Source: Pseudovibrio exalbescens (GTDB lineage Bacteria; Pseudomonadota; Alphaproteobacteria; Rhizobiales; Stappiaceae). Taken from it: a DNA stretch of 64,000 nucleotides. This document shows, piece after piece, positions 22,898 to 37,624 of this stretch. The notes under the pieces are model-generated. The model was not told the origin of the DNA. It did no database searches and worked only from the letters and a program-made list of their open reading frames with translations. Made by a program: the position numbers and the translations under genes. The stretch spans positions 620,001 to 684,000 of the forward strand of contig NZ_JAQZAJ010000002.1 of NCBI RefSeq assembly GCF_028737195.1. Reading direction: 5' to 3'. Each line of letters begins with the position of its first letter. The first letter of the stretch is position 1.

Positions 22898-23670
22898 CGG
22901 TTTACTTTATCGGCGCAGGGCCCGGTGATCCTGATCTCATCACGGTAAAGGGGCTGCGGCTCATCAAGCAATGTCCAGTAAACCTCTATGCCGGGTCTTT
23001 GGTGCCAGCGGCAATCGTGGCTGCAGCCCCGCCTGATGCGCTGGTGATCGACACAGCTTCACTGACACTGGATGAAATCATTGCGCACATTGTGGAGGCC
23101 CATGCGCAAAAAAAAGATGTAGCGCGCGTACATTCGGGAGACCCGTCAATCTATGGCGCGACGGCGGAGCAGATGCGCCGTTTGGATCAGTTGAACATCC
23201 CCTATGAAGTCGTGCCCGGCGTTCCGGCATTTGCGGCAGCAGCGGCAGCACTGAAAACCGAGCTCACACTTCCAGAGGTCGCGCAGACGGTGATTGTCAC
23301 GCGCACCTCCATGAAATCCTCAGGCATGCCTGAGGGGGAGGATCTGGAGACGCTCGGGAGAAGCGGCGCAACGCTTGCGATCCATCTAAGTATCAGGAAC
23401 ATCTCGGAAATTCAGCGTACACTGTCCCCGCTTTATGGTGAGGACTGCCCGGTGGTCGTGGCCTATCGCGTGGGCTGGCCAGACGAAACCTTCGTGCGCG
23501 GTACACTGGCCACCATCCGGGACCAGGTCCGCAAACAGAAGATTACCCGAACGGCCCTGATCTTCGTCGGCCCGGCTCTAAGCAAGGCGCAGGACTTCAG
23601 GGACAGCGCGCTATATGACGCCGAGCATGTGCATGTGCTCCGCCCAAAGCGCAAGGTCGCTGAGGGCTGA
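22894..23670 (+). CDS. cobM: Precorrin-4 / cobalt-precorrin-4 C11-methyltransferase
   Basis: SAM-dependent methylation at C11. The 258-aa protein starts at a GTG that overlaps the previous stop. It has V-Y-F-I-G-A-G-P-G-D-P-D-L-I-T-V-K-G, then V-H-S-G-D-P-S-I-Y-G-A-T, Y-E-V-V-P-G-V-P-A-F-A and a T-R-T-S-M-K-S-S-G-M-P block with the substrate-contact residues found in CobM/CbiF. Last gene of the plus-strand run; it converges on cobB. Confidence 0.95.
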   Translation: MTVYFIGAGPGDPDLITVKGLRLIKQCPVNLYAGSLVPAAIVAAAPPDALVIDTASLTLDEIIAHIVEAHAQKKDVARVHSGDPSIYGATAEQMRRLDQLNIPYEVVPGVPAFAAAAAALKTELTLPEVAQTVIVTRTSMKSSGMPEGEDLETLGRSGATLAIHLSIRNISEIQRTLSPLYGEDCPVVVAYRVGWPDETFVRGTLATIRDQVRKQKITRTALIFVGPALSKAQDFRDSALYDAEHVHVLRPKRKVAEG

Positions 23671-23698
23671 GCTGGCTTTGTTGCCAGTGGCTTGCCGA

Positions 23699-25039
23699 CT
23701 ACCAGTCGGCCCCGCGCTCGCTGATCACATGCGCGAAGGACCCTGCAACACGGTTTCTGACAAGCCCGATGTTTCCAAGTGGATGACGCTCAGAGTCGGC
23801 AGAAGAAAACAGAGGGGCGGCCTCTCCTTCACGCAAAATAGTGGCATAGTGAAACTCGTGGGCAGACAGATGTGTTTTCCATGGCAACAGCGCATCAGCA
23901 GCAGGCAGCAGGTGCAGCCTGCGATAGCCAAGATGCAGCTTGCGTTCAGCAAAGCTTGTTTCAAGCGGCAGGAACCCAAGCATGGGATGGCTGATGCCAT
24001 CAGCACCTGTTACAGCGTCTCCCAGAACCATGTAGCCGCCGCACTCGCCGTAAATCAGGGCATTGCGGTCTTTTGCAGCAGTCATTTTGGCTTTGAATTC
24101 AGCCGCTTGTGAAAGTGTCTCCAGATGCAGTTCCGGATAACCGCCGGGCAGGAAAACCGCATCGGCGTCCGCTGCCGGGCCCTCGTTGTTCAAAGGGGAG
24201 AATAGCTGTATTTCCGCGCCCAAATCCTGCCAGTCCTGCAACATGTGCGGATAGCTGAAAGCAAAGGCGAGATCATGAGCAACGGCAATGCGCTGCCCCA
24301 AGGGCGCAAGCTTGTTTGAAACGCTGGCCTTCTTGTGTTCCTGCTCTGGAATGCAAAGCGGGCGGCCAATGCGTTGAAGAACTGAAAGGTCCATCTGTTC
24401 CTCTGCAACCCGCCCCGCTGCGACGAGAAAATCCTCAAGATCAGTCCGTTCCTGCGCCTGAACGAGGCCAAGGTGACGGTCTTCCAGTTTGATTTCTGCA
24501 TCCCGGTAGACAACACCGAGCACAGGCACGGAGTTGATCTGCAATGCCCGGCGTAGGAGTGTTGCATGGCGCGGGGAGCCAACCCGATTAAGTATGACCC
24601 CCGCAATTTTCGGAGACTTTCGGAAGGTGCAGAAGCCATGCACGAGCGCTGCAACTGATTGGGCCTGCTTGGCACAGTCGACGACCAGCACCACTGGCAG
24701 GCCGAGCTGCGCGGCTAGGTCAGCAGCAGAACCTGTGTCGTCTGCCGCGCCATCAAACAAACCCATCGCAGCTTCAACGATCAGCAGTTCCTTGCCATGG
24801 GTGTGTTGAGCAACCAGCGAAGAAATGCGCACCGGCGTCATGCCCCACGCATCCAGGTTGATGCACTCTGCACCGGAAGCGGCGCTGTGAAATGCCGGAT
24901 CGATGTAGTCCGGGCCAGACTTGGCGGAAACAACGGAAACGCCTCGGTCACGAAATGCGCGCAACAGAGCCAGGGTGATGGTCGTCTTGCCTGCGCCAGA
25001 GGAGGGGGCAGCGACAACAAAACCGCGAGCGATGGTCAT
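23699..25039 (-). CDS. cobB: Cobyrinate / hydrogenobyrinate a,c-diamide synthase
   Basis: Glutamine- and ATP-dependent amidation of the a and c side chains (CobB/CbiA family, 446 aa). The N-terminal half has a deviant Walker A, S-S-G-A-G-K-T-T, at about residues 13-20, and the S-A-K-S-G-P-D-Y-I-D-P-A-F-H motif. The C-terminal class I glutaminase domain has G-G-Y-P-E-L and the catalytic Cys in Y-G-E-C-G-G-Y-M. Since cbiX, cbiG and cbiD are present, the CbiA role on cobalt-containing substrate is more likely. Paired with cobA on the minus strand, 6 bases apart. Confidence 0.94.
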   Translation of the reverse strand: MTIARGFVVAAPSSGAGKTTITLALLRAFRDRGVSVVSAKSGPDYIDPAFHSAASGAECINLDAWGMTPVRISSLVAQHTHGKELLIVEAAMGLFDGAADDTGSAADLAAQLGLPVVLVVDCAKQAQSVAALVHGFCTFRKSPKIAGVILNRVGSPRHATLLRRALQINSVPVLGVVYRDAEIKLEDRHLGLVQAQERTDLEDFLVAAGRVAEEQMDLSVLQRIGRPLCIPEQEHKKASVSNKLAPLGQRIAVAHDLAFAFSYPHMLQDWQDLGAEIQLFSPLNNEGPAADADAVFLPGGYPELHLETLSQAAEFKAKMTAAKDRNALIYGECGGYMVLGDAVTGADGISHPMLGFLPLETSFAERKLHLGYRRLHLLPAADALLPWKTHLSAHEFHYATILREGEAAPLFSSADSERHPLGNIGLVRNRVAGSFAHVISERGADW

Positions 25040-25045
25040 GGGATG

Positions 25046-25912
25046 CTAAGCCTTCTTGCTTGCCTCAAAAGTGCTGCGAAGCCCCAGAGGGTCTTCACAA
25101 AGAATGCGTCCATGGGCTTGACCCAGCCAGTCAAGTCCAGCGCGAAGCCGTACCACGTCACCAATCACCACCAGTGCCGGCGGCTTGAGGTCGTGGGCGT
25201 CGGCATCTCGCTTGCAGTTAGCAAGGGTCGTCTCCAGAACCTGCTGTGTGTTCAGCGTGGCATTGCTGACCAAGGCCACAGGTTCGTCCGGGTGTCGACC
25301 GGCTGCTAGCAACTTCTGAGATATAGCCTGCAAGTGTTTCATCGCCATGTACATCACGATGACCGGAGAGCTTTTTGCAAGCGAGGTCCAGTCAATGGCG
25401 TCAGGGGTGAGCCCCGTCTGGTCGTGCCCAGTCAGGAATGTAACGGTTTGGTTCACATCCCGGTGGGTGGTTGGAATGCCTGCATAGGCCAAACCGCCAA
25501 CACCGGCGGTAATGCCAGGCACAATCCGAAACTGAATACCCGCCCCTACCAGCGTTAGGGCTTCCTCACCTCCACGACCAAACACAAATGGATCTCCGCC
25601 TTTAAGGCGCAAAACGCGTTTGCCTGCACGGGCAAGCTCGATCAGTCGCAAGGAAATGTCGCGCTGTTGGGGGGAGGGCTTGCCGCCGCGTTTCCCAGCG
25701 TACTCCGCCATGGTTCCCGGTCTTGCGAAGGAGAGAATGCGCTCGTCCACCAATGCGTCATATACGATGACGTCCGCATGCCTGAGCGCATGGAGCGCCA
25801 ACAGCGACAACAGGCCAGGATCACCCGGTCCAGCACCCGTGAGCCAAACAGTGCCATGCTGAAACTCTGGAAACTCGTAGCTGGGCAGGGGGAGCGGGGT
25901 CTCGCTGTTCAT
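25046..25912 (-). CDS. cobA: Uroporphyrinogen-III C-methyltransferase (SUMT)
   Basis: Methylates uroporphyrinogen III at C2 and C7 to give precorrin-2, the branch point to siroheme and B12. Signatures are V-W-L-T-G-A-G-P-G-D-P-G-L-L, Y-D-A-L-V near 50, L-R-L-K-G-G-D-P-F-V-F-G-R-G-G-E-E-A, and G-I-T-A-G-V-G-G-L-A-Y-A-G-I-P-x-T-H-R. The ATG at 25912 is chosen; a TTG at 25948 is in frame but no better. It lacks a CysG N-terminal dehydrogenase/ferrochelatase domain, so a separate precorrin-2 dehydrogenase must be elsewhere to feed CbiX with sirohydrochlorin. Confidence 0.93.
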   Translation of the reverse strand: MNSETPLPLPSYEFPEFQHGTVWLTGAGPGDPGLLSLLALHALRHADVIVYDALVDERILSFARPGTMAEYAGKRGGKPSPQQRDISLRLIELARAGKRVLRLKGGDPFVFGRGGEEALTLVGAGIQFRIVPGITAGVGGLAYAGIPTTHRDVNQTVTFLTGHDQTGLTPDAIDWTSLAKSSPVIVMYMAMKHLQAISQKLLAAGRHPDEPVALVSNATLNTQQVLETTLANCKRDADAHDLKPPALVVIGDVVRLRAGLDWLGQAHGRILCEDPLGLRSTFEASKKA

Positions 25913-25988
25913 GCGTGGAAGATTAGACCTTGCGTCACTTTTAGCCAACTAGCATAAACGCACAGACACCTGTTTTTCTAAGGGGAAG

Positions 25989-27092
25989 ATGGCAGAGCAC
26001 GGGCCCAAGACATTGCGGCGAGGATGGACAACCGGTGCCTGCGCGGCAGCAGCGGCTAAGTCGGCCTATCATGCTTTGCTCCATGGTGAGTTTCTGGATC
26101 CGGTGGTGATCACGCTGCCGCGGGGAGAAACGCCCGCTTTCCCTCTGGCAGAGGAAGCATTGCAACCCGATCAAGCCTCCTGCGGAATTGTCAAGGATGC
26201 GGGGGATGATCCCGATGTCACCCACGGGGCACTGGTGATTGCCAGTGTGCGCAAAGCCTCATTTGGCGCGGGCGTCAGTTTTAAAGCTGGCAAAGGGGTG
26301 GGCACCATCACCAAGCCGGGCCTGCCGCTCCCTCCGGGTGAACCTGCGATTAATCCAAAGCCAAGGCAGATTATCAGTGAGGCGCTTCAAGAGGTGGCCG
26401 CTGCGGCTGGCGTTTCGGCAGATGTGGAGGTGGAAATCTCCATTCCCGGCGGCGAGCTCTTGGCGGAAAAGACGCTCAATGGTCGCTTGGGGATTGTTGG
26501 TGGCCTCTCTGTCCTTGGCACGACGGGTATTGTGCGACCGTTCTCCTGCGCAGCGTGGATTGCCTCAATCCATCGTGGCGTGGATGTCGCTCGGGCCCAA
26601 GGCCTGACCCATGTTGCAGCCGCGACAGGTGCCACTTCAGAAAATGTTCTGCGTTCAATCTATCCTGCTTTGCCCGAAAGCGCTTATCTGGACATGGGAG
26701 ACTTTGCTGGCGGGCTGCTCAAGTATTTGCGCCATCATCCGGTGGAACGGCTCAGCCTTGCGGGCGGCGTTGCCAAGCTGACCAAGCTGGCCCAAGGCGC
26801 GCTTGATCTGCATTCTGCACGCAGTCAGGTGGATTTTCGAGCGCTGGCGCAGCTGATCGCTGCATCTGGGGCCTCTGCGGAGCTGGTGGCCCGGACGCAG
26901 GATGCCAACACGGTAAAGGAAGTCAGCGACTTTGCGCATCAAAATGGTGTTGAGTTAGGCGCTGTGATTGCGCGTCAGGCAAAGCGGGCGGTGCATCACG
27001 TTTTGCGCAGTGACCATGTGAGCGTGGAAGTCATTGTGGTGGACCGGGACGGCACTCGGTTGGGCTTTGCCGGTTGGGATGACGCTCCATGA
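25989..27092 (+). CDS. cbiD: Cobalt-precorrin-5B C1-methyltransferase CbiD
   Basis: SAM-dependent methylation at C1, a step specific to the oxygen-independent (cobalt-early) pathway. The 367-aa protein begins R-R-G-W-T-T-G-A-C-A-A-A-A-A-K-S-A-Y, the CbiD hallmark (T-T-G-x-C-A-x-A-A), followed by K-D-A-G-D-D-P-D-V-T-H-G and G-V-G-T-I-T-K-P-G-L; later come G-I-V-G-G-L-S-V-L-G-T-T-G-I-V and A-T-G-A-T-S-E. It diverges from cobA and overlaps cobK by 4 bases. Confidence 0.96.
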   Translation: MAEHGPKTLRRGWTTGACAAAAAKSAYHALLHGEFLDPVVITLPRGETPAFPLAEEALQPDQASCGIVKDAGDDPDVTHGALVIASVRKASFGAGVSFKAGKGVGTITKPGLPLPPGEPAINPKPRQIISEALQEVAAAAGVSADVEVEISIPGGELLAEKTLNGRLGIVGGLSVLGTTGIVRPFSCAAWIASIHRGVDVARAQGLTHVAAATGATSENVLRSIYPALPESAYLDMGDFAGGLLKYLRHHPVERLSLAGGVAKLTKLAQGALDLHSARSQVDFRALAQLIAASGASAELVARTQDANTVKEVSDFAHQNGVELGAVIARQAKRAVHHVLRSDHVSVEVIVVDRDGTRLGFAGWDDAP

Positions 27093-27841
27093 AGACTGGT
27101 AAAAACAGACTGCTCCTTCTTGCAGGCACCCGGGATGCCCGCGTGCTCGCCGAGAAACTGGCGGAGGTTGACGGTCTGGAGGTGATCGCTTCCTTGGCAG
27201 GCGTGACCAGCAAACCGAAGTCTTATGCGGTGCCCGTTCGGCGCGGCGGCTTTGGGGGAGCGGAAGGCCTTGCAGAGTTCCTACGGCTGGAGCAGATCAC
27301 CTGCATCGTTGATGCAACGCATCCATTTGCGCGGGTGATAAGCGCCAACGCGGTGAAGGCCGCCGATCTGGCGCAGGTTCCGCTGCTTCGGGTGAGGCGG
27401 CCTGCTTGGCAAAAGAAGCCCGGTGATGACTGGCGGTGCTTTGACCAGCTTGAAAAGGCCGTTGCAGCTCTGCCGCAGGCAGCGCGCGTTTTCGCGGCCA
27501 TCGGCCGGAAAGAGCTTCAGCTTCTTCAAGCGCGGCCGGACCTTTGGCTGCTCACGCGCATGGTTGAGGCACCAACCCAAGGCTCAATGCCGTTCACGGG
27601 GGAGACTGTTTTGGGGTATCCAAGCTGTTCGGTTCAGCAAGAGGCCGAGCTTCTAACGGCCTATGGCATTCAATGCCTTCTTGCCAAAAACAGCGGGGGC
27701 TCCGCAGCTTATGCCAAGATTGAAGCGGCGCGTAACGGCGGGCTGCCGGTCTACCTTGTAAACCAGCCCACTTTGCCACCAGTTGAGGAAGCGGCGAGCA
27801 CTTCCGAAGCGTTCAACTGGGTGATGCGGGTGTGTTCTTAA
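27089..27841 (+). CDS. cobK: Precorrin-6A / cobalt-precorrin-6A reductase
   Basis: NADPH-dependent reduction of the macrocycle. The 250-aa protein has L-L-A-G-T-R-D-A-R-V-L-A near the start, V-D-A-T-H-P-F-A at about 74-81, a later F-A-A-I-G-R-K-E-L segment and the C-terminal K-N-S-G-G-S-A-A-Y-A-K-I-E-A-A-R pattern of CobK/CbiJ. Overlaps cbiD by 4 bases. Its 3' end overlaps the 3' end of the convergent cytochrome b561 gene by 29 bases. Confidence 0.94.
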   Translation: MKTGKNRLLLLAGTRDARVLAEKLAEVDGLEVIASLAGVTSKPKSYAVPVRRGGFGGAEGLAEFLRLEQITCIVDATHPFARVISANAVKAADLAQVPLLRVRRPAWQKKPGDDWRCFDQLEKAVAALPQAARVFAAIGRKELQLLQARPDLWLLTRMVEAPTQGSMPFTGETVLGYPSCSVQQEAELLTAYGIQCLLAKNSGGSAAYAKIEAARNGGLPVYLVNQPTLPPVEEAASTSEAFNWVMRVCS

Positions 27842-28382
27842 CGGCACCAGTGCCAGTGGTCATGCGCTCAAATACGCCGTCTTTCAACACATACTTGTGG
27901 TAGAGCGCGCCTGCAATGTGCAGGACGATTGCAACGGACACCATGATGCCTAGTGCCGTGTGGAATGAGAACAAGATCTCCGCCAGAGCCTGATCCTTGG
28001 CCACAATTGGCGGCAGTATAAACAGATTGAACACCGATATCGGCGCACCGAACGCTGACGTGGCAACCCAGCCCAGCAGCGGACTGACAAGAAGCACCAT
28101 ATACAAAAACCATTGGGTGGCATGGGCAAGAGTACGCTGCCAGATCGCTATGGAGGAGGGAAGCGGCGGCGGAGGTACCTTGTATCGATAAAGCAGGCGC
28201 ATCGCGGTGATTACAAACAGCACAACACCCATGGAACGGTGGTAGTCGAACAAGGTGTTTTGCAGATTTCCCGGCCCAATGTTGATCATCACAATGCCCG
28301 CGGGCACCATGGTAAGCATACCCGCAGCAGTGATCCAATGAAACGCCCGTGCTGTAACAGAATAAACCTGTGGTGGCTGCAT
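27813..28382 (-). CDS. Cytochrome b561 family protein
   Basis: Inner-membrane di-heme electron carrier (189 aa, four transmembrane helices). Likely heme ligands are His in A-F-H-W-I-T (TM1), D-Y-H-R-S-M-G (TM2), F-H-T-A-L-G and L-H-I-A-G-A-L-Y-H (TM3-TM4). Such proteins oxidise ubiquinol and pass electrons to oxygen radicals or a periplasmic partner. The ATG at 28382 is chosen because caggggag precedes it by 4 bases; an in-frame start at 28460 has none. Confidence 0.9.
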   Translation of the reverse strand: MQPPQVYSVTARAFHWITAAGMLTMVPAGIVMINIGPGNLQNTLFDYHRSMGVVLFVITAMRLLYRYKVPPPPLPSSIAIWQRTLAHATQWFLYMVLLVSPLLGWVATSAFGAPISVFNLFILPPIVAKDQALAEILFSFHTALGIMVSVAIVLHIAGALYHKYVLKDGVFERMTTGTGAVKNTPASPS

Positions 28383-28453
28383 TTGGCTCCCCTGATATTG
28401 AGTGGCTACTGATCTACCGGGTTTATGAAACTCGACAGTAATTGCATGATCAT

Positions 28454-28468
28454 ATACCACTACGGTAT
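28454..28468. promoter_or_regulatory. 15-bp dyad in the divergent cytochrome b561 / RibD-like promoter region
   Basis: ATACC-actac-GGTAT is a perfect 5+5 dyad, with the palindrome atgatcat just to its left (28446-28453). It lies midway between two divergent start codons (28382 and 28517), a usual place for an operator. The binding protein is unknown. Confidence 0.35.
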
Positions 28469-28516: not shown

Positions 28517-29302
28517 ATGAATATTGAACCGTCGGTGCCCAAGACAATCGCCGGCTTGATGAACTGCGCTGAATGGCAAGCTGTTCTTGATGCTTGGAAA
28601 CGCGGAGCCGCGCCCGACGCCGAAGGCTATGTGCAGGCATTCTCACCCTTGTGCGCACCTGAGAGACAAACTTTCGTTGGCCAGCTTGGTCAGTCAATAG
28701 ATGGCCGGATCGCCACAGCTACTGGCGACTCCTTTTACATCAACTGTCAGGAAGCGCTCGATCATCTACATTGCTTGCGGGCGCTGTGCGATGCCGTGGT
28801 TGTCGGCGTGGGCACCGTTGTTGCGGATAACCCGCAGCTCACGGTGCGCAGGGTGCCGGGTGATAGCGCAAGCCGTGTGATTATTGACCCAAACGGGCGC
28901 ATCCCAAAAGATGCCCGCCTTTTACACGATGAGGCCGCGCCAACAATTGTTCTAACCCGCGATCGCGTGACGCTGGACTTGCCAGCCCATGTGGAAGTGC
29001 GCCGCCTTCCAGAGGCAGATGATGGCCGCCTATGCTGTCATGCTATTGCGGAAGCTCTTTCCGACTTCAAGAGAATACTGATTGAGGGGGGCGCGTGCAC
29101 GGTGTCCAGGTTTATCGACTGCGGTTTGCTGGACCGTCTTCATGTGATGGTCGCGCCGCTTATCATTGGTGCCGGGCCAACGGGTATTCAGTTGCCCCCA
29201 CTTAACAAGTTGTCAGAGGCTCATCGGCCAATGGCTGCAATGCACCAGCTGGGGACGGATTGGCTGCTGGATTTGGATTTAAAGCAAGAGCTGCCTCACT
29301 AG
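28517..29302 (+). CDS. RibD C-terminal-domain reductase (no deaminase domain)
   Basis: Single-domain member (261 aa) of the RibD_C/dihydrofolate-reductase superfamily. After a roughly 50-aa N-terminal extension that is not a deaminase, the reductase core is nearly canonical: S-I-D-G-R-I-A-T-A-T-G-D-S, L-R-A-L-C-D-A-V-V-V-G-V-G-T-V-V-A-D-N-P-Q-L-T-V-R, R-V-I-I-D-P-N-G-R, I-L-I-E-G-G-A and the L-I-I-G-A-G-P-T-G end. In riboflavin synthesis this fold reduces the ribosyl side chain of a diaminopyrimidine. The start at 28517 has an aaggga site. Its stop overlaps that of the methyltransferase operon by 4 bases; the five genes may form one pathway. Confidence 0.85.
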   Translation: MNIEPSVPKTIAGLMNCAEWQAVLDAWKRGAAPDAEGYVQAFSPLCAPERQTFVGQLGQSIDGRIATATGDSFYINCQEALDHLHCLRALCDAVVVGVGTVVADNPQLTVRRVPGDSASRVIIDPNGRIPKDARLLHDEAAPTIVLTRDRVTLDLPAHVEVRRLPEADDGRLCCHAIAEALSDFKRILIEGGACTVSRFIDCGLLDRLHVMVAPLIIGAGPTGIQLPPLNKLSEAHRPMAAMHQLGTDWLLDLDLKQELPH

Positions 29303-30111
29303 TCACAAGGCAGTGCAACAAAATCCGTATGCCCAACGGTCACTTGCGCTGAGGAATTTTGGCTGAGAGACAGCCGTTCCTGTTTCCAGTCGTCTGCCAG
29401 CGCCTTTGGAATGCCAATCTCCACCGCCGCCTGTGCCCAGCCACGAATGAGGTCACGCAGCAAACTGCTGTATCTGTTGCCCAAAACCCAGTTAGAGGGG
29501 GCAGTGTGAACCTCATACCCAGCATCTCGGAAAACTTGGGCACACACTTGCGCAGCTGCGGGGCCCAATGCCAGACCAAATCCCTTGTCGGTCTTTTGAT
29601 GCATGTTCACCGCATCCATGATTACCCCATCGTGGCGATGTGGATGCGAAAAGGATACTTCGCCGTTGTAGGTGAGCGTTGCTAAAAAGGGCTGCCGCCC
29701 ATCTGCTACCGCCTTCACAAATCGCGTCACCCAATTGCGGCTCACCAGATCCAAAAATGCTGTCGTGACAATGCCGTGCGCGCCATCGAAATGCGCGAAA
29801 GAACGCTGAGCGCTGAGATCGGCCAACTGCGGCACGATTGTAATTTCGCTGGGTGTGTTCGGGGGGCGAATTTCATTGAGCAGATCTTGGTCGTGATCCA
29901 GCAGGGTCCAGTGCTGAGGCCCCTCCAACTTGTCGTAGAGTAACGCAAGATTAGCGCCGGTACCCGTTGCTATATCGACCAGTCGAACCGGTGAGCTTCC
30001 CTCTCGCACCCCTTCAAGGTAGTCCAGAAAGATCTTTTCAATCTTTGTGTCTCGTGCGGAGCGATCAGCTTCTCGTCTTAAATCCAGCCAATCGGCAGCA
30101 AAGGCTGTCAT
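29299..30111 (-). CDS. Class I SAM-dependent methyltransferase of a small tailoring cluster
   Basis: Rossmann-fold methyltransferase (270 aa). Motif I is V-D-I-A-T-G-T-G-A-N (about residues 44-53), followed by an acidic strand L-L-D-H-D-Q-D-L-L and a later F-D-G-A-H-G-I-V-T-T-A-F-L-D-L motif-IV-like block. The segment S-H-P-H-R-H-D near 160 is unusual and may form part of the substrate or metal site. Overlaps the glycosyltransferase gene by 4 bases, so the two are co-translated. The substrate is not known. Confidence 0.85.
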   Translation of the reverse strand: MTAFAADWLDLRREADRSARDTKIEKIFLDYLEGVREGSSPVRLVDIATGTGANLALLYDKLEGPQHWTLLDHDQDLLNEIRPPNTPSEITIVPQLADLSAQRSFAHFDGAHGIVTTAFLDLVSRNWVTRFVKAVADGRQPFLATLTYNGEVSFSHPHRHDGVIMDAVNMHQKTDKGFGLALGPAAAQVCAQVFRDAGYEVHTAPSNWVLGNRYSSLLRDLIRGWAQAAVEIGIPKALADDWKQERLSLSQNSSAQVTVGHTDFVALPCD

Positions 30112-31181
30112 AAAAGCGCCTCCAGCGTGTTAGAGAACAATGCGCCCTGCGTTGGCCACGTGGGTAGATTGCGACCGGCCTCCGCCGAGTATTTTGCAGT
30201 AACCTTGCGCGTAGACGGGTCGTTTATCATAAGAGACAGAGCTTGACCAAAGCTTTCCACGTCAGCTTCTTTGCAAAACAACGCTGCTTTTTCTGGAACT
30301 GTATCTCGAACAGCCCCGCGACCACTCGCGATGATAGGAAGGCCGGTCATCAACGCTTCAGCGAATGCCATGCCATATCCCTCGTAGTAACTGGCAAGTG
30401 CAAACACATCAGCATGCGCGTATATCTGGGCAAGGGCAGTTTCTGATACGGCGCCATGCAATGTAACGCGTTTCTCCAGCCCCTCCCTTTCGATTATCTG
30501 TTTGAGTTGCGCTGCGTAGGCAAGATCGCAACGCGTATCGCCGACCAAATCCAAATGCCATTTCAGCTCCTTGAGCTGTGCAAGCGCGCAGACAAGAACA
30601 TCCTGCCCCTTTCTCGGGATGATGGAGCCAACGCTGAGTATGCGAACCACATCAGTGCCGTGCTGCTCTGCGCCCGTCGGCGCAACGTCGAGGAGGCGCT
30701 CGGTTCCGGGCAAAATGGACCGCATGAGCGCAGCGGGCAGGTCAAACTCTTCGCGGAGCTGCACCAGTGTTGCCGGGCTGGTGGTAATGATCCTGCTCAC
30801 ATATTGAAGCGCCTCACGTTCGCGCTGGAAGAAAGCTGCCGAAACATCTTCAGACAGCCCATCCTCTTTGAACAAAGGGTGATGCACCAGTGCGACAAGT
30901 TTCAGACGGTCTTTTTGCTCTTTTGCGACTTCTGGCAGGACGCCGAACGCCAACCCGTCACAAACAACAAGCTCGCCATCAGGAAAGGCGCGAAATTGCG
31001 CTTGGGCATCCAGTCTGGCAATGCCGCCACACAGTGGGAACTCGTCCGAAAGGCTCACCACGTCCACTGTCCAGCCAAGCTGTCTCAGCTCGCTGATGAT
31101 ACGTCGATCATAACGATATCCGCCGGTAGGGCGCTCCAGATTGCCGGGTATGACGAAGCTTAGCCTGCGATTTTTACTCAT
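30108..31181 (-). CDS. GT4-type glycosyltransferase of the tailoring cluster
   Basis: GT-B-fold transferase (357 aa). The C-terminal domain shows the classic retaining GT4 features: S-V-G-S-I-I-P-R-K-G-Q-D-V-L (about residues 187-200), an A-D-V-F-A-L-A-S-Y-Y-E-G-Y-G-M-A-F-A-E-A stretch containing the E-x7-E nucleotide-sugar motif, and G-L-P-I-I-A-S-G. The N-terminus has G-G-Y-R-Y-D-R-R, typical of the acceptor side in this family. It overlaps both neighbours in the operon (4 bases with the methyltransferase, 8 with the PTPS-like gene), so a small-molecule acceptor made by the cluster is plausible. Confidence 0.88.
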   Translation of the reverse strand: MSKNRRLSFVIPGNLERPTGGYRYDRRIISELRQLGWTVDVVSLSDEFPLCGGIARLDAQAQFRAFPDGELVVCDGLAFGVLPEVAKEQKDRLKLVALVHHPLFKEDGLSEDVSAAFFQREREALQYVSRIITTSPATLVQLREEFDLPAALMRSILPGTERLLDVAPTGAEQHGTDVVRILSVGSIIPRKGQDVLVCALAQLKELKWHLDLVGDTRCDLAYAAQLKQIIEREGLEKRVTLHGAVSETALAQIYAHADVFALASYYEGYGMAFAEALMTGLPIIASGRGAVRDTVPEKAALFCKEADVESFGQALSLMINDPSTRKVTAKYSAEAGRNLPTWPTQGALFSNTLEALL

Positions 31182-31596
31182 TATGCACTTCGGAAGCGGT
31201 TAGCGGAGCTTCGAAGCTGGCGCTTGCCACATCAGATTCTGTTAGGGTGACACGGATACGGTCAAGCTCTTCCGGGCCGCGCGCCAGCTTGTGCAAGTAG
31301 ACTGCATCACAAACGCGCTGGAAAATGTAGCCGCACATGTATTCGGTTGTTGTGACAAGTCCTTGAAACTGCGGCAAGTCATCAAGATTTTGGTAGTTGA
31401 TTGGCTCCAGAACGCTATCCAGAACTTCCATTGCGCGCCCCATGTCGACCACGAGCCCGTTTTCATCTAGCTTTTCGGCGAAAAAGGACACCGAAACACC
31501 ATAGGTGGCGCCGTGAAGCCCTTGCGCTTTTCCAAAGACCTCTCGCGGCAAACTGTGCGCGATCATGATGCGGTTCTTCACTTCAACTGAATACAT
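31174..31596 (-). CDS. 6-pyruvoyl-tetrahydropterin synthase / QueD-like protein with altered active site
   Basis: A 140-aa T-fold protein. The start at 31596 follows caggaga. Alignment by eye to E. coli QueD keeps the Zn ligand H14 (A-H-S-L-P), H28 in L-H-G and the catalytic Glu in T-L-T-E-S-D, but three key positions differ: the catalytic Cys is A24, the third Zn ligand His is A30 (L-H-G-A-T-Y instead of L-H-G-H-x-Y), and the catalytic His of L-D-H is Y68 (I-N-Y-Q-N-L). It therefore should not do normal QueD or PTPS chemistry. It may catalyse a retro-aldol-like or isomerase step, or bind a pterin. Co-transcribed with GT4, methyltransferase and dehydrogenase genes. Confidence 0.85.
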   Translation of the reverse strand: MYSVEVKNRIMIAHSLPREVFGKAQGLHGATYGVSVSFFAEKLDENGLVVDMGRAMEVLDSVLEPINYQNLDDLPQFQGLVTTTEYMCGYIFQRVCDAVYLHKLARGPEELDRIRVTLTESDVASASFEAPLTASEVHNE

Positions 31597-31616
31597 GGCG
31601 TGTGTCTCCTGCGGGC

Positions 31617-32573
31617 TCAGTAGGAAAGGGGTTGGCAAAGGCCGGATTGCTTCCCTGTAAAAATCTCGGGAAGCGCTTCTGCGGCTTGTTTGAAAGGAAT
31701 TGCGCGCGCCAACAAGCAATCCAAAGCAGGATCGCGCAGTAGGCGCAGAGCGGCCTCCAGACGTTGGCGGTGTGTGTGGCTTTGCCGCATCGAGGGCGCG
31801 ACGGTGCCAACTTGAGAACTGATCAGCTGCAACCGCTTGGAATGAAACCCGCCGCCAAGGCCGATGCCAACTTGGCGGTTGCCGTACCAGGAAACTTCAA
31901 TCACTCGCCCTTCATGGCGGGCAAGGGCAAAGGCTGTGTCGAGGCCCTCTGGTGTCGCGCTGCAATGAAAGACAATATCAAATTCGGTCGCAGGGGGCGG
32001 CGTCTGCGAAAACGTGCACCCAAGCTGTTCTGCAATCTCACGTCGATTCGGCTGAGGGTCGATCAAGGTTACGTCCACTTCAGGAATGCGCGCACACAGG
32101 TAACCAATCAGGCAGCCGAGGGTACCGGCGCCGACCACGCAAACACGATGGGCTGGCAAAACGCCCCCATCCCAAATGGCATTTAACGCGGTTTCCATGT
32201 TCGCAGCCAAAATGGCACGCTGCGGATCAAGCCCATTGGGCAGCTCCACGAGATCTTTCGGGTCAATGTTGAAGGCATCTTGATGCGGATGAAGCGCGAA
32301 GCAGAGCCGGTCGTCTGTTTCGCGGCGCACCACGGTGCTGTAGCCATACTTGACCGGGAACGGAAACTCCCCGTGTTGATGGGGTGCCCGCATCCTAAAA
32401 AATTCGGAGGGTGGAACAGCGCCAGAGAACACCAAAGCTTCTGTGCCGCGGCTTATGCCACTAAAAAGTGTCATGACGCGCACTTCAGGTTCCTTTGGTT
32501 TAGAGAGAAATTCCTCCCTAATCTCAATTGTTTGCGGTGCCGTATACCAAAGAGCTTGCGCTGTCGTTGCCAT
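31617..32573 (-). CDS. Medium-chain dehydrogenase/reductase-like protein of the tailoring cluster
   Basis: A 318-aa MDR-superfamily oxidoreductase. The nucleotide-binding fold is seen at V-C-V-V-G-A-G-T-L-G-C-L-I-G (about residues 143-156), followed by V-T-L-I-D-P-Q as the end of the second strand. The catalytic domain starts with S-G-I-S-R-G-T-E, as in the zinc-free or single-zinc MDRs of tailoring pathways, where the usual Cys ligand of S-G-I-C/S-H position is Ser here. The usual structural-zinc cysteine quartet is absent. First gene of the four-gene minus operon. Confidence 0.82.
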   Translation of the reverse strand: MATTAQALWYTAPQTIEIREEFLSKPKEPEVRVMTLFSGISRGTEALVFSGAVPPSEFFRMRAPHQHGEFPFPVKYGYSTVVRRETDDRLCFALHPHQDAFNIDPKDLVELPNGLDPQRAILAANMETALNAIWDGGVLPAHRVCVVGAGTLGCLIGYLCARIPEVDVTLIDPQPNRREIAEQLGCTFSQTPPPATEFDIVFHCSATPEGLDTAFALARHEGRVIEVSWYGNRQVGIGLGGGFHSKRLQLISSQVGTVAPSMRQSHTHRQRLEAALRLLRDPALDCLLARAIPFKQAAEALPEIFTGKQSGLCQPLSY

Positions 32574-32754
32574 GAACGCACTTTCTGTGCCATTGGTTTT
32601 TCAAAAATATACCCTAGAGAAACCTAAGAAAGCCAAACTATAGAAACATCATATAAGATCGACATCTCCAATAAACAGGGAATCGTCGGTCGAATAAAGA
32701 CCTAACACAGCAGATGGAGTTTTCTCTCCCGCTCTCAATCGAGGAAGTTTGACT

Positions 32755-34539
32755 GTGCATCTCAGTTCTTCGCCTGCGTTGACGTATCGTCGTATTTCTT
32801 TTGGCCTTTTAGTGATCCTCAGCTTGATTGGGCTGGTGAGCCTTATGGTGCTTGCTTTGTCACCTGGGGGCTTCAACTTCCTTAAGGTACTGTTGCTGAT
32901 CTTCTTTTCGATCACACTTCCATGGTTGGTGGTTGGGTTTTGGCACGCCATCATCGGGCTCGCCATCATGCTGTTTTCGCGAGATGCAGCAGCACTGACG
33001 TGCCCTCTCGACCCGGACAACGACAGGGACCCGCTCCCCAAGCGAGCGACAGCGCTGCTCTCCTGCATTCGCAATGAGAACGTTGGTGAGGTCGAGCGCA
33101 AACTTGACGCCATGCTCTCCGGGTTGGCCAGCCTGAAGGCCCTAGACGGCTTTCAGCTGTATGTTTTGAGCGATACCAACGACGCCGAAATTGCTCAGGA
33201 GGAAGAACAGGCCTTTTCCGCACTGAGGGCGCGTTGGCAACACGAAGTCGAGGTCATTTACCGCCGTCGCGAGAACAATGTGGGTTACAAGTCCGGAAAC
33301 ATTGCGGACTTTTGCGCGCGGTGGGGTGCAAGCCATACCTATGGCATCACACTGGATGCTGACAGCTATCTCTCAGCCGAAACGCTGGTTGCTCTCGTGC
33401 GGAAGATGGAAGCAAACCCGCAACTTGGCATCTTGCAGACCCTAGCAGTGGGACTTCCCAGCAAGGCGCTGTTTGCCCGCGTGTTTCAGTGGGGCATGCG
33501 CTTGGGCATGCGCTCCTACACCTTGGCTGCAGCTTGGTGGCAGGCAGATACGGGCCCCTACTGGGGACACAACGCAATCCTGCGGTTGCTGCCCTTTCGG
33601 GAGCACTGCATGCTGCCCCAGCTCTCTGGAAAAGGGCCTCTTTCGGGTCATATCCTGAGCCACGATCAGGTCGAGGCCGCTTTCATGCGCCGCGCAGGGT
33701 TTGAAGTCCGCGTCTGGCCTGTTGAAGATGGCAGCTACGAGGAAAACCCACCTAACCTCATCGAGTTTGTTAGGCGCGATTTGCGCTGGTGCCACGGCAA
33801 TCTGCAGTATCTGAAACTGCTTGCAACGCCGGGACTGCATTTCATCAGCCGCATTCAGTTGGTGCTCGCAATTCTGATGTTTGTTGGCTCAGTGGCGTGG
33901 ATGGCTTTCATTGGCGTATCAGTCTATGCCTCATTGCTGGCCGATCCAGGCGCAATTCAGTTTGATGCCAACTACGGCTTCCCGTTGTTCTTGACGGTGA
34001 TGACCATGGTGTTTTCTCCGAAGCTGTCGTCGCTCGCTTATGTGCTGCTTAGCAGCCAACGGCGTGCGGGATTTGGCGGAACGCTGCGCATCTTTGTCAG
34101 TGCCATATGCGAGATCCTCTTCACAGTTTTGCTGGCGCCAATCATGGCAATCACCCACACGCTCTTCATTGCCATGCTGTTCATGGGCGCGAAGGTAGGG
34201 TGGCGGCGTCAGGAACGCCTGCCAAAAGGTGTGAGCTGGGAAATGGCGATCCGCAAATACTGGCCGCAATTCGTGTTCGGGTGCTTGGGGCTATGGTGGG
34301 CGAGCCTATTTCCGTTGAGCATGTGGTGGCTGTTTGCGCCGCTTGTCGCTGGACCGCTGATGGTTATTCCGTTCACGGTGATGACTTCACTGCCATATCT
34401 GGGGCAGGTCGCCGATCACTATGGTTTTTGGCGCCTACCGGAAGAAAGGCAGGCGCCAAAGGAGTTTCTTTTCTTGGAAGACGGCGCTTTGGCTACTCGC
34501 GAGCTCACAGCAACAGACCCTGCTGTCTTGCCACGGTAG
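32755..34539 (+). CDS. opgH: Osmoregulated periplasmic glucan glucosyltransferase OpgH (MdoH)
   Basis: Membrane GT2 enzyme that polymerises and exports the glucan backbone from UDP-glucose. After two N-terminal hydrophobic segments the cytoplasmic catalytic domain shows R-E-N-N-V-G-Y-K-S-G-N-I-A-D-F-C, the L-D-A-D-S DxD motif, G-H-N-A-I-L-R, G-P-L-S-G-H-I-L-S-H-D and R-D-L-R-W-C-H-G-N-L-Q-Y, followed by several C-terminal transmembrane helices. At about 594 aa it is the short alphaproteobacterial version, much shorter than E. coli MdoH (847 aa). A GTG at 32755 has the better ribosome-site spacing than a TTG at 32749. opgG/opgD are not in the window. Confidence 0.93.
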   Translation: MHLSSSPALTYRRISFGLLVILSLIGLVSLMVLALSPGGFNFLKVLLLIFFSITLPWLVVGFWHAIIGLAIMLFSRDAAALTCPLDPDNDRDPLPKRATALLSCIRNENVGEVERKLDAMLSGLASLKALDGFQLYVLSDTNDAEIAQEEEQAFSALRARWQHEVEVIYRRRENNVGYKSGNIADFCARWGASHTYGITLDADSYLSAETLVALVRKMEANPQLGILQTLAVGLPSKALFARVFQWGMRLGMRSYTLAAAWWQADTGPYWGHNAILRLLPFREHCMLPQLSGKGPLSGHILSHDQVEAAFMRRAGFEVRVWPVEDGSYEENPPNLIEFVRRDLRWCHGNLQYLKLLATPGLHFISRIQLVLAILMFVGSVAWMAFIGVSVYASLLADPGAIQFDANYGFPLFLTVMTMVFSPKLSSLAYVLLSSQRRAGFGGTLRIFVSAICEILFTVLLAPIMAITHTLFIAMLFMGAKVGWRRQERLPKGVSWEMAIRKYWPQFVFGCLGLWWASLFPLSMWWLFAPLVAGPLMVIPFTVMTSLPYLGQVADHYGFWRLPEERQAPKEFLFLEDGALATRELTATDPAVLPR

Positions 34540-34584: not shown

Positions 34585-35763
34585 CTACTTCGCGTTGTGC
34601 GCAGGCGCCCGCCACGGATGCTTCTTGTACCAACTCACCGTGTAGGCTACGGCAATGAGGCCTGCAAAGCCTGCTAGATTGATAAAGAGTTCCGTCAGGG
34701 CTGTCTTTCCACCCAGGACTTCGTTTCGAACGATTGCCAAAGTCTGCGCAATCACGAGGCTGGCGAGGAAAACGGCAAGTGATTGCTGGCCGACCTTCTG
34801 AATAACAGTCACGACCTTACCCCAGAGGCCTGAAGAAAGCAGGTATTTGCCGCCTTCACCTACTGCGGTCCACGCCAGATACGCCAAAGCCAGGAAGTGC
34901 AGGTAGCGGAAAATGCCGAACTCGGTTTTAGCGGTCAGAACCTTGATGTCCCGTGCCATCTCAAGGAACACCGGCGCAACCTGAAACACGCGGAAGTACG
35001 AGAACGGCACAGACGCCAGCACGATAATGGCCGCTACAACAAGAAGCGACTTTTTTACGGGCGGGCGAGGAATCCAGCCACGCATCAAGGCAAATCCAGT
35101 AAAAAACAGAAGCTGCCAGCCGAAAGGATTGAAGAACCATCGACGGTCAGACCAAGGTTCCGCTGGCAAGTCCAGATAACGGAAGTTTGCAGCCAACCAT
35201 AAAGCGATTGCCAGACCGGCAACGGCGGTGCGTCCGCCAGTTTTGTAGGCCAAGAGCATTACCGGCATGAGGGCCAGTATGACCAGATACATGGGCAGAA
35301 TGTCGAAGTAGTTCGGCACGTAGGTGAGCGTCAAGATGCCCGGAATGTTGAAGATCGGATCTTCAAACAAGTGCCAGAGATTCAGACCGCCAACATAGTC
35401 GCGTTCAACCATGCCATGAATTTGCAAAAAGGCGAGCCACCCCGCGAGAAACAGAAGCAGTGTGACGTGGGCCCAATAGACTTGCCAGACCCGAAAGGAA
35501 ACGCGAGCGGTTCCCATCCACCAGCCTCGGTCCTCAAAGATTTTGCCAAAGGCAATTGCAGAGGCCATGCCGGAACAGAAAACGAATATTTCTGTAGCAT
35601 CGGAAAAACCAAATCGGGCAGGAATCCAGAGTGTCCACGTGTTACCCGGTGTATGGGACACGAAAATGATGAACATGGCGATGCCACGAAAGAAGTCGAG
35701 ACGCGGATCGCGTGGTCGCAGCGCACCGGCAGCGATCACAGGGCTAGGTTGGTGCTTGTTCAA
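34585..35763 (-). CDS. opgC: OpgC-type glucan-modifying membrane protein
   Basis: A 392-aa integral membrane protein with about ten hydrophobic segments, of the acyltransferase-related OpgC family that adds succinyl or other acyl groups to periplasmic glucans. It begins with R-D-P-R-L-D-F-F-R-G-I-A-M-F-I-I-F-V-S-H-T-P, where the conserved R-x-D-F-F-R-G and the His are family hallmarks; F-G-F-S-D-A-T-E-I-F-V-F-C-S-G follows. Convergent with opgH, 46 bases apart, which supports a shared role in glucan synthesis. Confidence 0.9.
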   Translation of the reverse strand: MNKHQPSPVIAAGALRPRDPRLDFFRGIAMFIIFVSHTPGNTWTLWIPARFGFSDATEIFVFCSGMASAIAFGKIFEDRGWWMGTARVSFRVWQVYWAHVTLLLFLAGWLAFLQIHGMVERDYVGGLNLWHLFEDPIFNIPGILTLTYVPNYFDILPMYLVILALMPVMLLAYKTGGRTAVAGLAIALWLAANFRYLDLPAEPWSDRRWFFNPFGWQLLFFTGFALMRGWIPRPPVKKSLLVVAAIIVLASVPFSYFRVFQVAPVFLEMARDIKVLTAKTEFGIFRYLHFLALAYLAWTAVGEGGKYLLSSGLWGKVVTVIQKVGQQSLAVFLASLVIAQTLAIVRNEVLGGKTALTELFINLAGFAGLIAVAYTVSWYKKHPWRAPAHNAK

Positions 35764-35840: not shown

Positions 35841-37226
35841 TTAACCGAGGTTTGCACGTAATGCCTCGTTCTGCATGACAGTCGCAGCGGCTGTCATCTT
35901 TTCCACCTGTTGTGCACGGACCTTTGCAAAGGCATCAGGTGCGCTGCGTAAGGTGGTTCGTTCCGTTATCATGCGCTGGGCGTCCTCAGGCATCCCGGCA
36001 CGCAGCGCTGCTTCAATTGTAAGCCGCTCGAATACATCCCGCTGAGCATGGCTGCCACCGATCTCGTTGAGGTTTGGTCGCGCCTGTTGCAGATGCTTCA
36101 AGGCAGAGAAGTAGTTGCCTTTTCTGAATTCAGAAAGGCCTTCGGCAGCAGCGACGCCGCTGTTGTTGGTGATCAGTGAGATGTCTCCGGAAAGTGCAGA
36201 TGCGGTTTCACGCATGCGGGCGACCATGCTTTCAGCTTCACGCCAACGGTTCCCCTGCAAAAGGGACATCATGTAATGAAGGTCTGCAAAGACGTTGCAG
36301 CCGTCGTCTATACGATTACTCGAAAGGTTGGCAAGCTCCTCCCAGCGGCCACCCACATTTATCCCCTCAAGCTCAAGGCGCATCAGCATTGAGGCTGCAT
36401 TGGAGATATCGCGGTAATCATCTGAGCGTTCCTTGCGGATCTTGTCGTCGTAAAGTTCAAGAACCCGGTCAACATTGCCTTTGTCCAGATGCATCAATGC
36501 CAGATGCCACCAGACATGAAAGCCAAAGTTGTTGCAGTGAGACCAGCTTTGGGGCTGGGTGTCGAGCCAGCGAATGCCCGTATCGCTTTCACCGCACATA
36601 TCGTAGACGTGGGCGACTGCATGAAGGCCCCACGCATCATCAGGACGTAGCTCCACAGCCTGCCTGCCATGTGTTTCCGCCAGCTTGTAGTCGCCGGTTT
36701 CCTCAAGTGAAAAAGCATAGCACCCCTTGATGTAACCAAGGGCCACATGCTGTTCACTGTAAGCATCAAAAACGGCCTCTATGGACCGTCGCATTTCCAC
36801 GCCCTGTCCAAGCACGAAGCGAAGGGCATGAACCAGCTTCAGGAGTAACGCATCCTCCGGCCACTCTTTCAAGGCGGCATCCATTAAATCAGCCGCGCGG
36901 CTGGGCCATCCCTCACACCACAGCCGCAAGCCCTTGATGTAGGCCGCCTCGCGTGCGGTGACGGGGGTTTCAAGGCTGCTTTTCTCAGCGATGCTCAGGG
37001 CGTCCTGTGCAACTGATACAAGTTCCTTGCGCCCCAGAAGCAAGTTGAACAACCCGCGGGAAGCCTGCGCCATTGCGAAATCCGGCGCGGCGTTCAAGGT
37101 TGCTGTCAGATGAACCGGCGTATGGGCCCCGTGAGCCAAGAAGGCGATAATGGTCTTGTTCCACGGTTCCAGTGCGGCAGCATTAGAGAGGGTCACATCG
37201 TAACCGAATTGATCTGTCATGCGCAT
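35841..37226 (-). CDS. Tetratricopeptide-repeat protein similar to TTC38
   Basis: A helical-repeat protein of about 460 aa in the TTC38-like family. It has repeated A-x-x-x-G-L-F/Y and A-L-x-x-A-x-x-x-x-P pairs typical of TPR helices, a conserved Y-A-F-S-L-E-E-T-G segment (near residue 170) followed by D-A-W-G-L-H-A-V-A-H-V-Y, and an N-F-G-F-H-V-W-W-H-L-A-L motif; the H-A-x-A-H and W-W-H-L-A patterns are the best-conserved parts of TTC38. Start options are ATG 37226 (best site spacing), ATG 37220 and TTG 37238. Function is unknown; it is probably a cytosolic scaffold. Confidence 0.8.
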   Translation of the reverse strand: MRMTDQFGYDVTLSNAAALEPWNKTIIAFLAHGAHTPVHLTATLNAAPDFAMAQASRGLFNLLLGRKELVSVAQDALSIAEKSSLETPVTAREAAYIKGLRLWCEGWPSRAADLMDAALKEWPEDALLLKLVHALRFVLGQGVEMRRSIEAVFDAYSEQHVALGYIKGCYAFSLEETGDYKLAETHGRQAVELRPDDAWGLHAVAHVYDMCGESDTGIRWLDTQPQSWSHCNNFGFHVWWHLALMHLDKGNVDRVLELYDDKIRKERSDDYRDISNAASMLMRLELEGINVGGRWEELANLSSNRIDDGCNVFADLHYMMSLLQGNRWREAESMVARMRETASALSGDISLITNNSGVAAAEGLSEFRKGNYFSALKHLQQARPNLNEIGGSHAQRDVFERLTIEAALRAGMPEDAQRMITERTTLRSAPDAFAKVRAQQVEKMTAAATVMQNEALRANLG

Positions 37227-37624
37227 GAGTGCCCTCAATCAAACAGGAAAAGGGGTAGCAGCAGCCATCCCAGTTCCTGCAAAAACCGGGCACGCCTGCG
37301 ACTACGGATTACGTACGAGGATAACTTTCTCGGAACCGCCTATGACAAGCAAAACACAAATTGTTGTTGGTTTCGTGTTTTATCTGAGCCTAATTCAAGG
37401 TTCCTGACAACTCTGAAATCTCCTGTACAAGAACGGTGACTTCTGGAGCAAATTGCTGATATTGCTAGTGAAAAGTTGTTTGTGAACCCGCGCATCAAGG
37501 TGCCCTTTTTGTCAAGCTGCCACTTGGCGTGATCACTTTTTTGACCAAGAATTCATTTGGCCTGTTACTGAAGCTTTTACTGTGCTGAACTGCTTTCAAG
37601 AAATATAAAGCAGCGGAAAGCTGA
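37227..37624. other. Divergent intergenic region without a gene
   Basis: About 400 bases, AT-richer than the genes, between the TPR gene (minus) and the YeeE/YedE gene (plus). It must hold both promoters. I see no convincing ORF, RNA or repeat. A short imperfect repeat (cttgg/ccaag around 37534-37553) brackets a T-run. Confidence 0.6.

Follow-up and report, generated by a model that had tools for sequence, protein, structure and literature searches.

A conserved bacterial gene set around a PTPS-IV protein that may build a methylated glycoside from GTP

What does a bacterium make with a RibD-type reductase, a PTPS-fold protein, a dehydrogenase, a glycosyltransferase and a methyltransferase encoded side by side? 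The question is raised by a locus of Pseudovibrio exalbescens, within the 64,000 nucleotides of contig NZ_JAQZAJ010000002.1 (positions 620,001 to 684,000) that were analysed as a whole and are referred to here as the window. A sequence-only reading of this DNA had proposed that the five genes form an undescribed cluster acting on a pterin or flavin precursor.

All five genes are found at 28517-32573, with their families confirmed (Table 1). Four of them form the minus-strand operon that had been described, with close or overlapping ends: a gap of 20 bases with GGAG ahead of the ATG at the dehydrogenase/PTPS junction, an overlap of 8 bases between the PTPS and GT4 genes, and a 4-base ATGA overlap between the GT4 and methyltransferase (MT) genes. 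The reductase gene, which starts with the ATG at 28517 and has an in-frame TTG at 28442, does converge on the operon with a 4-base stop overlap, the CTAG common to the RibD_C and MT stops. Promoter and terminator signals show no excess over shuffled sequences between 27700 and 33000. GC3 gives no sign of recent foreign origin (0.57-0.59 in the window genes versus 0.58-0.66 in seven neighbours tested).

Table 1. Features of the cluster and its flanks, in window coordinates
Feature	Position	Strand	Match and remarks
Cytochrome b561-type membrane protein	27813..28460	-	PF01292 E 2.6e-27; accessory
RibD_C reductase without deaminase domain	28517..29302	+	PF01872 E 2.7e-37; converges on operon
Class I SAM-dependent methyltransferase (MT)	29299..30111	-	Methyltransf_25; final gene of minus-strand operon
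GT4 glycosyltransferase	30108..31181	-	PF00534 E 5.8e-29
Predicted PTPS-IV (SCO6650-type) PTPS-fold protein	31174..31596	-	PF01242 E 5e-22
Medium-chain dehydrogenase	31617..32573	-	PF00107 (E 3e-06) and the BchC model TIGR01202 (E 3.9e-15), each scoring under the curated cut-off; operon's first gene
MdoH-like membrane glycosyltransferase	32749..34539	+	NF003958, NF003963; divergent from operon

The five genes are part of a gene set conserved among bacteria, and their adjacency is more than chance. In 20 same-family genomes, hand-picked from the 57 with a PTPS gene, the order dehydrogenase-PTPS-GT4-MT is unchanged in every case at protein identities of 32-79%, and RibD is present in 11. Among 84 wide loci from two phyla (those with less than 5.5 kb on either side excluded), the dehydrogenase gene lies immediately before PTPS in 79, GT4 follows PTPS in 75 and MT lies at most 2.6 kb downstream in 77. 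These four genes are thus adjacent in relatives; RibD is too, but less tightly, being near the cluster (within 5.5 kb on each side) in 54 of the 84. The same partners are found in other classes, in Actinomycetota and on plasmids, the records including Streptomyces, Microbacterium and Thiodictyon plasmids. Of 61 genomes of the family, the four without the PTPS gene also have no cluster-type RibD and no cluster-type MdoH, while the 57 with it have cluster-type RibD in 24 and cluster-type MdoH in 49. More widely, a PTPS-IV match of at least 140 bits occurs in 45 of 385 genomes sampled from the window's class, and the phylum sample has strong matches in 27 of 398. Two loci in that sample (L212 and L214) have RibD directly after PTPS, with GT4 and MT not found in the 1.5 kb downstream, and at two of the eight plasmid loci opened, from 23 matches, a PTPS relative stands without any further gene of the cluster (L168 and L169).

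One set of relatives comprises the best 80 of 567 confirmed loci, and the class set the 29 best-scoring of 45, with the window's own excluded. Locus counts omit L058, L065, L066, L073, L077 and L109 as duplicates, judged by the length of their contigs, L058 needlessly, as its genome is among the short loci only. Score limits in these counts are 100 bits for CDP-alcohol phosphotransferase and LPG_synthase_TM, 300 for NdvA and 120 for GTP cyclohydrolase II (GCHII). The list of clustered genes contains antisense ORFs and was used solely for finding GCHII and picking proteins to scan.

The PTPS-fold protein is most similar to SCO6650 of Streptomyces coelicolor, whose structure (PDB 3d7j) is matched by a profile of 16 sequences with E 7.8e-48 over 131 aligned positions, the next-best solved PTPS reaching 4.2e-09. 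In alignments, the window protein retains the His15, His29 and Glu121 of the QueD/PTPS-I kind, whereas the catalytic Cys, the third zinc His and the Asp-His pair are all replaced, as in 3d7j. The 16 PTPS-IV rows are uniform in this respect: Glu121 and His29 occur in 16/16, His15 in 15/16, an Ala at the Cys position in 16/16, and HGAT, HGLT or HGST in 16/16, while the PTPS-II and PTPS-III motifs CxxxxxHGH and ExxHGH are absent from all of them. FGPAQ is presented as a signature occurring 'preferentially' in PTPS-IV (COG0720) in a study that also gives a PTPS-IV gene neighbourhood with PF00925 and PF01872 (PMC5445326). SCO6650 is classed here as PTPS-IV because of its FGPAQ letters. By sequence, the window protein belongs with PTPS-IV of the SCO6650 type: an FG.AQ...HGAT plus NY.NL pattern is common to both, although the window has FGKAQ where its nearest relative (L032) has FGPAQ, and no GCHII alongside. 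Scanning 109 loci gave FGPAQ with HGAT in 84 of 86 pattern-fitting ORFs, the pattern itself demanding FG.A and HG.T.

The core of the cluster idea is therefore right and not wholly new, because the PTPS-IV neighbourhood has been published; its PF01872 member is present in the window as RibD_C, while the dehydrogenase, GT4, MT and membrane partners are not named in that source as far as its text was available (PMC5445326). Of the claim that the cluster is undescribed, what stands is the full gene set, for which no description was found in the literature searched, most subscription papers being outside its coverage. This full set supplies a context for SCO6650, a solved structure still 'uncharacterized' in the PDB and now placed in a widely shared operon.

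Databases annotate PTPS-IV proteins as 6-carboxytetrahydropterin synthase of the queuosine pathway, and the sequence-only reading likewise spoke of a PTPS/QueD-like protein. For a QueD among unrelated neighbours one can cite that the protein is the genome's only PF01242 match and that two QueC-model matches lie slightly above the Pfam cut-off. Both of these are weak and cover only part of the model (70 and 60 of 210 positions), so that the genome has no full-length QueC match; the CxxxHGH motif and Asp-His pair of QueD are missing, and the neighbours are conserved in two phyla. QueD-like chemistry is thus not supported. On the motif loss and the partial QueC matches, a queuosine role is unlikely, and a plain QueD among unrelated neighbours extremely improbable.

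A second published assignment, to cofactor F420, is stated from unpublished work (PMC5041015). The window's genome has cofH, cofD and cofC, and two genomes of a single genus have F420-like genes within a few kb of the cluster. Streptomyces, an F420 maker, has a relative as well. Across the 385 class genomes, however, PTPS-IV occurs in 45 and CofH over cut-off in 60, and both in only 9 versus 7.0 expected (p 0.38, overlap hand-counted), leaving 36 of the 45 PTPS-IV genomes without CofH over cut-off. The class-wide association being absent, an F420 role is not supported and is very unlikely; both the queuosine annotation of these genes and the printed F420 assignment become doubtful.

For the reductase, RibD_C is the only Pfam match and so no deaminase domain is seen, as had been claimed; the deaminase domain of bifunctional RibD was not found, and the NCBIfam RibD models match through their C-terminal part. 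The protein matches the archaeal reductase model TIGR01508 with a score below cut-off, and its nearest PDB entry is 6p8c, a 2,5-diamino-6-ribosylamino-4(3H)-pyrimidinone 5'-phosphate reductase (E 2.1e-27). G97, T100, D104 and P106, which we take to be the dinucleotide motif of RibD_C reductases, are retained in at least 93% of 64 sequences.

The set exceeds five genes: it includes the MdoH-like membrane glycosyltransferase, cytochrome b561 and, elsewhere, GCHII (PF00925). GCHII lies near the cluster in 35 of the 84 wide loci and retains its three Cys in 40/40. On a quick tree with 81 rows scored, the cluster has acquired or lost GCHII at least 20 times, RibD at least 13 times and b561 at least 14 times. 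A GTP-derived substrate, as first proposed, is supported by this repeated adjoining of GCHII, but within the window's own family GCHII stands beside the cluster in just 2 of 61 genomes, and it is not in the window. Given these counts, and RibD being absent from 33 of the 57 family genomes with PTPS, neither gene is obligatory. A dependence between the two, suggested by 29 loci that have both (Fisher p 0.003), loses significance when independent pairs are compared.

An ordinary source of pterin is conceivable too, since the window's genome encodes GTP cyclohydrolase I twice. Pterin glycosides are made by cyanobacteria (PMC13259868). The product here, like those of cyanobacteria and Chlorobium, would be a glycosylated pterin-type compound. 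Cyanopterin-like compounds carry a sugar and a methyl group, which the cluster's transferases would fit. Nevertheless, the cyclohydrolase found alongside the cluster is of type II; where those pathways use GTP cyclohydrolase I, this one has GCHII and RibD_C, and a RibD_C reductase is not known to play a part in the cyanobacterial route. The cluster's PTPS protein also differs in lacking its catalytic residues. A cyanobacterial-type pterin glycoside, built from GTP cyclohydrolase I products, is thus unlikely.

Across 102 GT4 sequences, R190, K191, E267 and E275 are conserved in 93% or more; we take E267/E275 to be the E-x7-E motif and R190/K191 the Arg/Lys of the donor site. Pfam gives nothing for the window MT at 0.001 and Methyltransf_25 at 0.014, a family that 22 of 24 members, the window among them, match at E <= 0.1; the MT profile matches SAM methyltransferases in the PDB (best 1.4e-05), and D46, G50, G52, D72 and D74 are retained. 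For the dehydrogenase, a 'zinc-binding' (zinc-dependent alcohol) type was rejected: Cys/His zinc ligands are not supported, and no Cys reaches 93% conservation among 103 sequences.

The full set further points to a membrane step invisible from the five genes alone. The MdoH-like protein scores 557 bits with NF003958 (cut-off 419) and E 8.2e-187 with NF003963, below that model's cut-off. Its gene occurs in 55 of the 84 wide loci and cytochrome b561 in 46; an NdvA-like exporter lies near some MdoH loci, mostly betaproteobacterial. Another clade has a CDP-alcohol phosphotransferase instead, in many cases accompanied by an LPG_synthase_TM protein. In 94 loci (those with less than 4.5 kb upstream excluded), MdoH is found in 65, the CDP-alcohol transferase in 20, both in none and neither in 9. 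Many independent swaps are not the explanation: the tree needs just 2 changes, so the low p-value mostly reflects two clades. The MdoH-like enzyme, cytochrome b561, GCHII and the CDP-alcohol transferase had all been missing from the sequence-only reading.

Such membrane partners would also suit an operon for a glycoconjugate linked to lipid or to the envelope and built on something other than a pterin. In that case the PTPS-fold and RibD_C proteins would have been recruited for other small heterocycles or for binding. The catalytic residues lost in PTPS-IV and the family genomes in which RibD is missing agree with this; the repeated joining of GCHII, and a nearest solved relative of RibD that acts on a GTP-derived pyrimidine, speak against it. 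We regard it as a real but minor possibility.

Most likely, the cluster uses GTP to make a small molecule that is methylated and carries a sugar. In the fuller form of this reading, to which we give somewhat better than even chances, a PTPS-IV biosynthetic cluster turns a GTP-derived diaminopyrimidine into a methylated glycoside, and the MdoH-like enzyme or the CDP-alcohol transferase acts on it at the membrane. As we infer the reactions and their order, GCHII would open GTP to 2,5-diamino-6-ribosylamino-4(3H)-pyrimidinone 5'-phosphate; in many other genomes its gene adjoins the cluster, and in the window's genome a candidate RibBA-sized gene elsewhere might supply it. The RibD_C reductase would then reduce the ribosyl chain like the archaeal enzyme; having no deaminase, it would keep the 2-amino group, and therefore the compound would part from the path to riboflavin. 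The PTPS-IV protein probably binds no metal; it may hold the 2-amino-4-oxopyrimidine or a derived pterin through its conserved Glu and help in ring closure or shaping. The dehydrogenase would adjust a hydroxyl or keto group, GT4 attach a sugar and MT a methyl group. The MdoH-like enzyme, in some loci with the NdvA-like exporter, might finish, anchor or export the product, a task that would fall in the other clade to the CDP-alcohol phosphotransferase, often with LPG_synthase_TM. A bolder and unlikely extension sees in the product a new redox or light-absorbing cofactor, either exported or anchored in the membrane. It would be a glycoside of an N-ribityl-type aminopyrimidine or pterin, made with no deamination on a metal-free PTPS fold; chemistry of the MdoH-like or CDP-alcohol kind would attach it to the envelope, where it would exchange electrons with cytochrome b561.

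The start of this route resembles that of archaeal riboflavin synthesis (GCHIII, ArfB, reductase), whose reductase likewise comes without a deaminase. One Streptomyces locus (L167) adds a variant: in its GCHII a Met replaces the Tyr of the other 39, presumably indicating the formylated route, provided that the SCO6655 work applies, and a creatininase-family gene lies alongside. BrbF of Sinorhizobium is annotated to the same family (PMC9478397). The cluster differs from both the archaeal and the BrbF systems in that lumazine or riboflavin synthase was not seen among the opened annotated neighbours, and in adding sugar and methyl transfer. The L167 creatininase itself scores best with MftE, below cut-off, and not with ArfB.

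The five genes placed by a sequence-only reading at 28517-32573 are found there. The minus-strand four are closely packed throughout, and the stop of the RibD-type gene shares the four bases CTAG with that of the methyltransferase.

Genes of the cluster, in positions of the window
Gene	Position	Strand	Junction
Dehydrogenase	31617-32573	minus	20 bases from PTPS
PTPS	31174-31596	minus	8-base overlap with GT4
GT4	30108-31181	minus	4-base overlap with methyltransferase
Methyltransferase	29299-30111	minus	end of packed run
RibD-type gene	28517-29302	plus	

This gene set is real, widely shared and partly recognised before; its product is only predicted. The cluster PTPS is present in 57 of the 61 genomes of the window's family. 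The co-occurrence check proposed from the sequence alone bears out the operon: the order dehydrogenase-PTPS-GT4-methyltransferase is unchanged in all 20 family genomes opened, with 17-18 kb read in each. Membership of RibD holds in part: the converging gene occurs in 11 of these 20 genomes, and RibD in 54 of 84 wide loci (5.5 kb or more either side of PTPS; Pseudomonadota and Actinomycetota). In the same 84 loci, PTPS has the dehydrogenase immediately before it in 79, GT4 after it in 75 and the methyltransferase downstream in 77, with an MdoH-like membrane glycosyltransferase in 55, cytochrome b561 in 46, GTP cyclohydrolase II (GCHII) in 35 and a CDP-alcohol transferase in 20. PTPS is flanked by the dehydrogenase on one side and GT4 on the other in all 29 best-scoring loci of an even class sample (1.5 kb flanks, window's own left out), 27 of which carry the methyltransferase; 23 further loci from a phylum sample have the dehydrogenase (23/23), GT4 downstream (20/23) and the methyltransferase (21/23). 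A named-genome scan with the family alignment yielded at least 567 confirmed relatives; the best 80 of these, short contigs counted, have the dehydrogenase in 79, GT4 in 77, the methyltransferase in 73, MdoH-like in 57, RibD in 49 and b561 in 36.

RibD is tied to the cluster, yet dispensable for some members. Cluster-type RibD (at least 174 bits) occurs in 24 of the 57 family genomes with PTPS, and cluster-type MdoH in 49, one stop-split and one fragmented; neither was found in the four family genomes without PTPS (G025, G042, G052 and G053, the last of these less complete). On a quick tree built on dehydrogenase and PTPS, with 81 rows scored, presence near the cluster changes state at least 13 times for RibD, 20 for GCHII and 14 for b561, a pattern better explained by functional association formed again and again than by a single frozen neighbourhood. 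Plasmid copies of the cluster occur in Methylosinus (pOB3b1), Agrobacterium (pAt), Palleronia (beside repABC) and Microbacterium (L171-L174), and locus L038 places with Rhizobiaceae on the quick tree; these are signs of horizontal movement. Plasmid records with cluster relatives include Streptomyces, Microbacterium and Thiodictyon, and in two Streptomyces records the PTPS relative stands alone, without partners.

Across 94 loci, 65 have the MdoH-like gene versus 20 with the CDP-alcohol transferase, none both and nine neither, a split requiring just two changes on the quick tree. An LPG_synthase_TM protein appears only alongside the CDP-alcohol transferase (12 of those 20 loci). An NdvA-like exporter (at least 300 bits) is present in 13 of 108 wide loci, eight of them labelled betaproteobacterial; in Polynucleobacter (L078) exporter, MdoH-like gene and methyltransferase form one run. 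G017 has all four operon genes, but its cluster-type MdoH-like gene (C2:99818-101481) is split into several pieces and looks disrupted.

The description of the PTPS protein as QueD-like fails, as the QueD motif is missing. Canonical relatives from the same search (L234, L236) carry CARLHGHN and WDHxNL; the window protein and its kin carry FGxAQxxHGAT and NYxNL, with the canonical Cys, third zinc His and Asp-His pair all replaced. In a 16-row alignment, Ala stands at the Cys place and Ala, Leu or Ser at the third His in all rows, Asn-Tyr takes the place of the Asp-His pair in 15 rows and Ala-Phe in one, and His29 and Glu121 are kept in 16 and His15 in 15. A role in queuosine is further disfavoured by the two QueC matches, which barely exceed the cut-off and span 70 and 60 of 210 positions. 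The top solved-structure match is SCO6650 (3d7j), reportedly zinc-free, lacking the catalytic triad and PTPS activity, with a pterin-like pocket.

The RibD_C protein lacks the deaminase, and its closest solved structure is a diaminopyrimidine reductase. GT4 keeps its donor-site residues and E-x7-E; a conserved Cys was looked for in the dehydrogenase family alignment and none was found. GCHII keeps three Cys in 40 of 40 proteins and Tyr301 in 39, with Met in Streptomyces L167, where a creatininase-family gene lies nearby and no RibD match was found at the locus. Met at the equivalent place in SCO6655 reportedly gives a formylated product. PMC9478397 describes deformylating enzymes for such a product from Archaea and Rhizobiales, the latter formerly annotated creatininase. 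In the window's family, GCHII lies beside the cluster only in G005 and G017 of 61 genomes.

In PMC5445326, PTPS-IV is a named group of 561 sequences with signature FGPAQ and a neighbourhood of PF00925 and PF01872 (RibD_C); PF00925 is called GTP cyclohydrolase I there but GTP_cyclohydro2 in Pfam. Among the rival readings, GTP cyclohydrolase I is a possible source of the precursor. PMC5041015 assigns PTPS-IV to F420 from unpublished work, and F420 genes are present in the window's genome; however, CofH exceeds its cut-off in 9 of 45 PTPS-IV genomes against 7.0 expected. The proposed reaction order, from a GTP-derived diaminopyrimidine to a methylated glycoside, is the interpretation that best fits the parts, every step being predicted.

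Elsewhere in the window's genome, cofH, cofD and cofC lie together (contig C23, ~48.0-51.8 kb), each over its NCBIfam cut-off, and contig C21 encodes a GAK-system CofD-like protein (TIGR04357, 499 bits). Two loci of one genus (L237, G306 C10; L238, G386 C132) hold cofC-, cofD- and cofE-like genes and an F420-dependent reductase-like gene, named by eye, CofH excepted, a few kb past the MdoH-like gene that accompanies PTPS-IV.

Immediately to the left of the cluster, window 21041-27841 is occupied by cobalamin genes (CbiG/methylase fusion, tetrapyrrole methylases, CobB-type, CbiD, CbiJ); members of two of these families are also found in 6 of 20 family loci, probably as mere synteny. To the right of the MdoH-like gene lie an OpgC-type protein (34585-35763; 9 of 20 family loci) and a TPR protein (35841-37238; 10 of 20).
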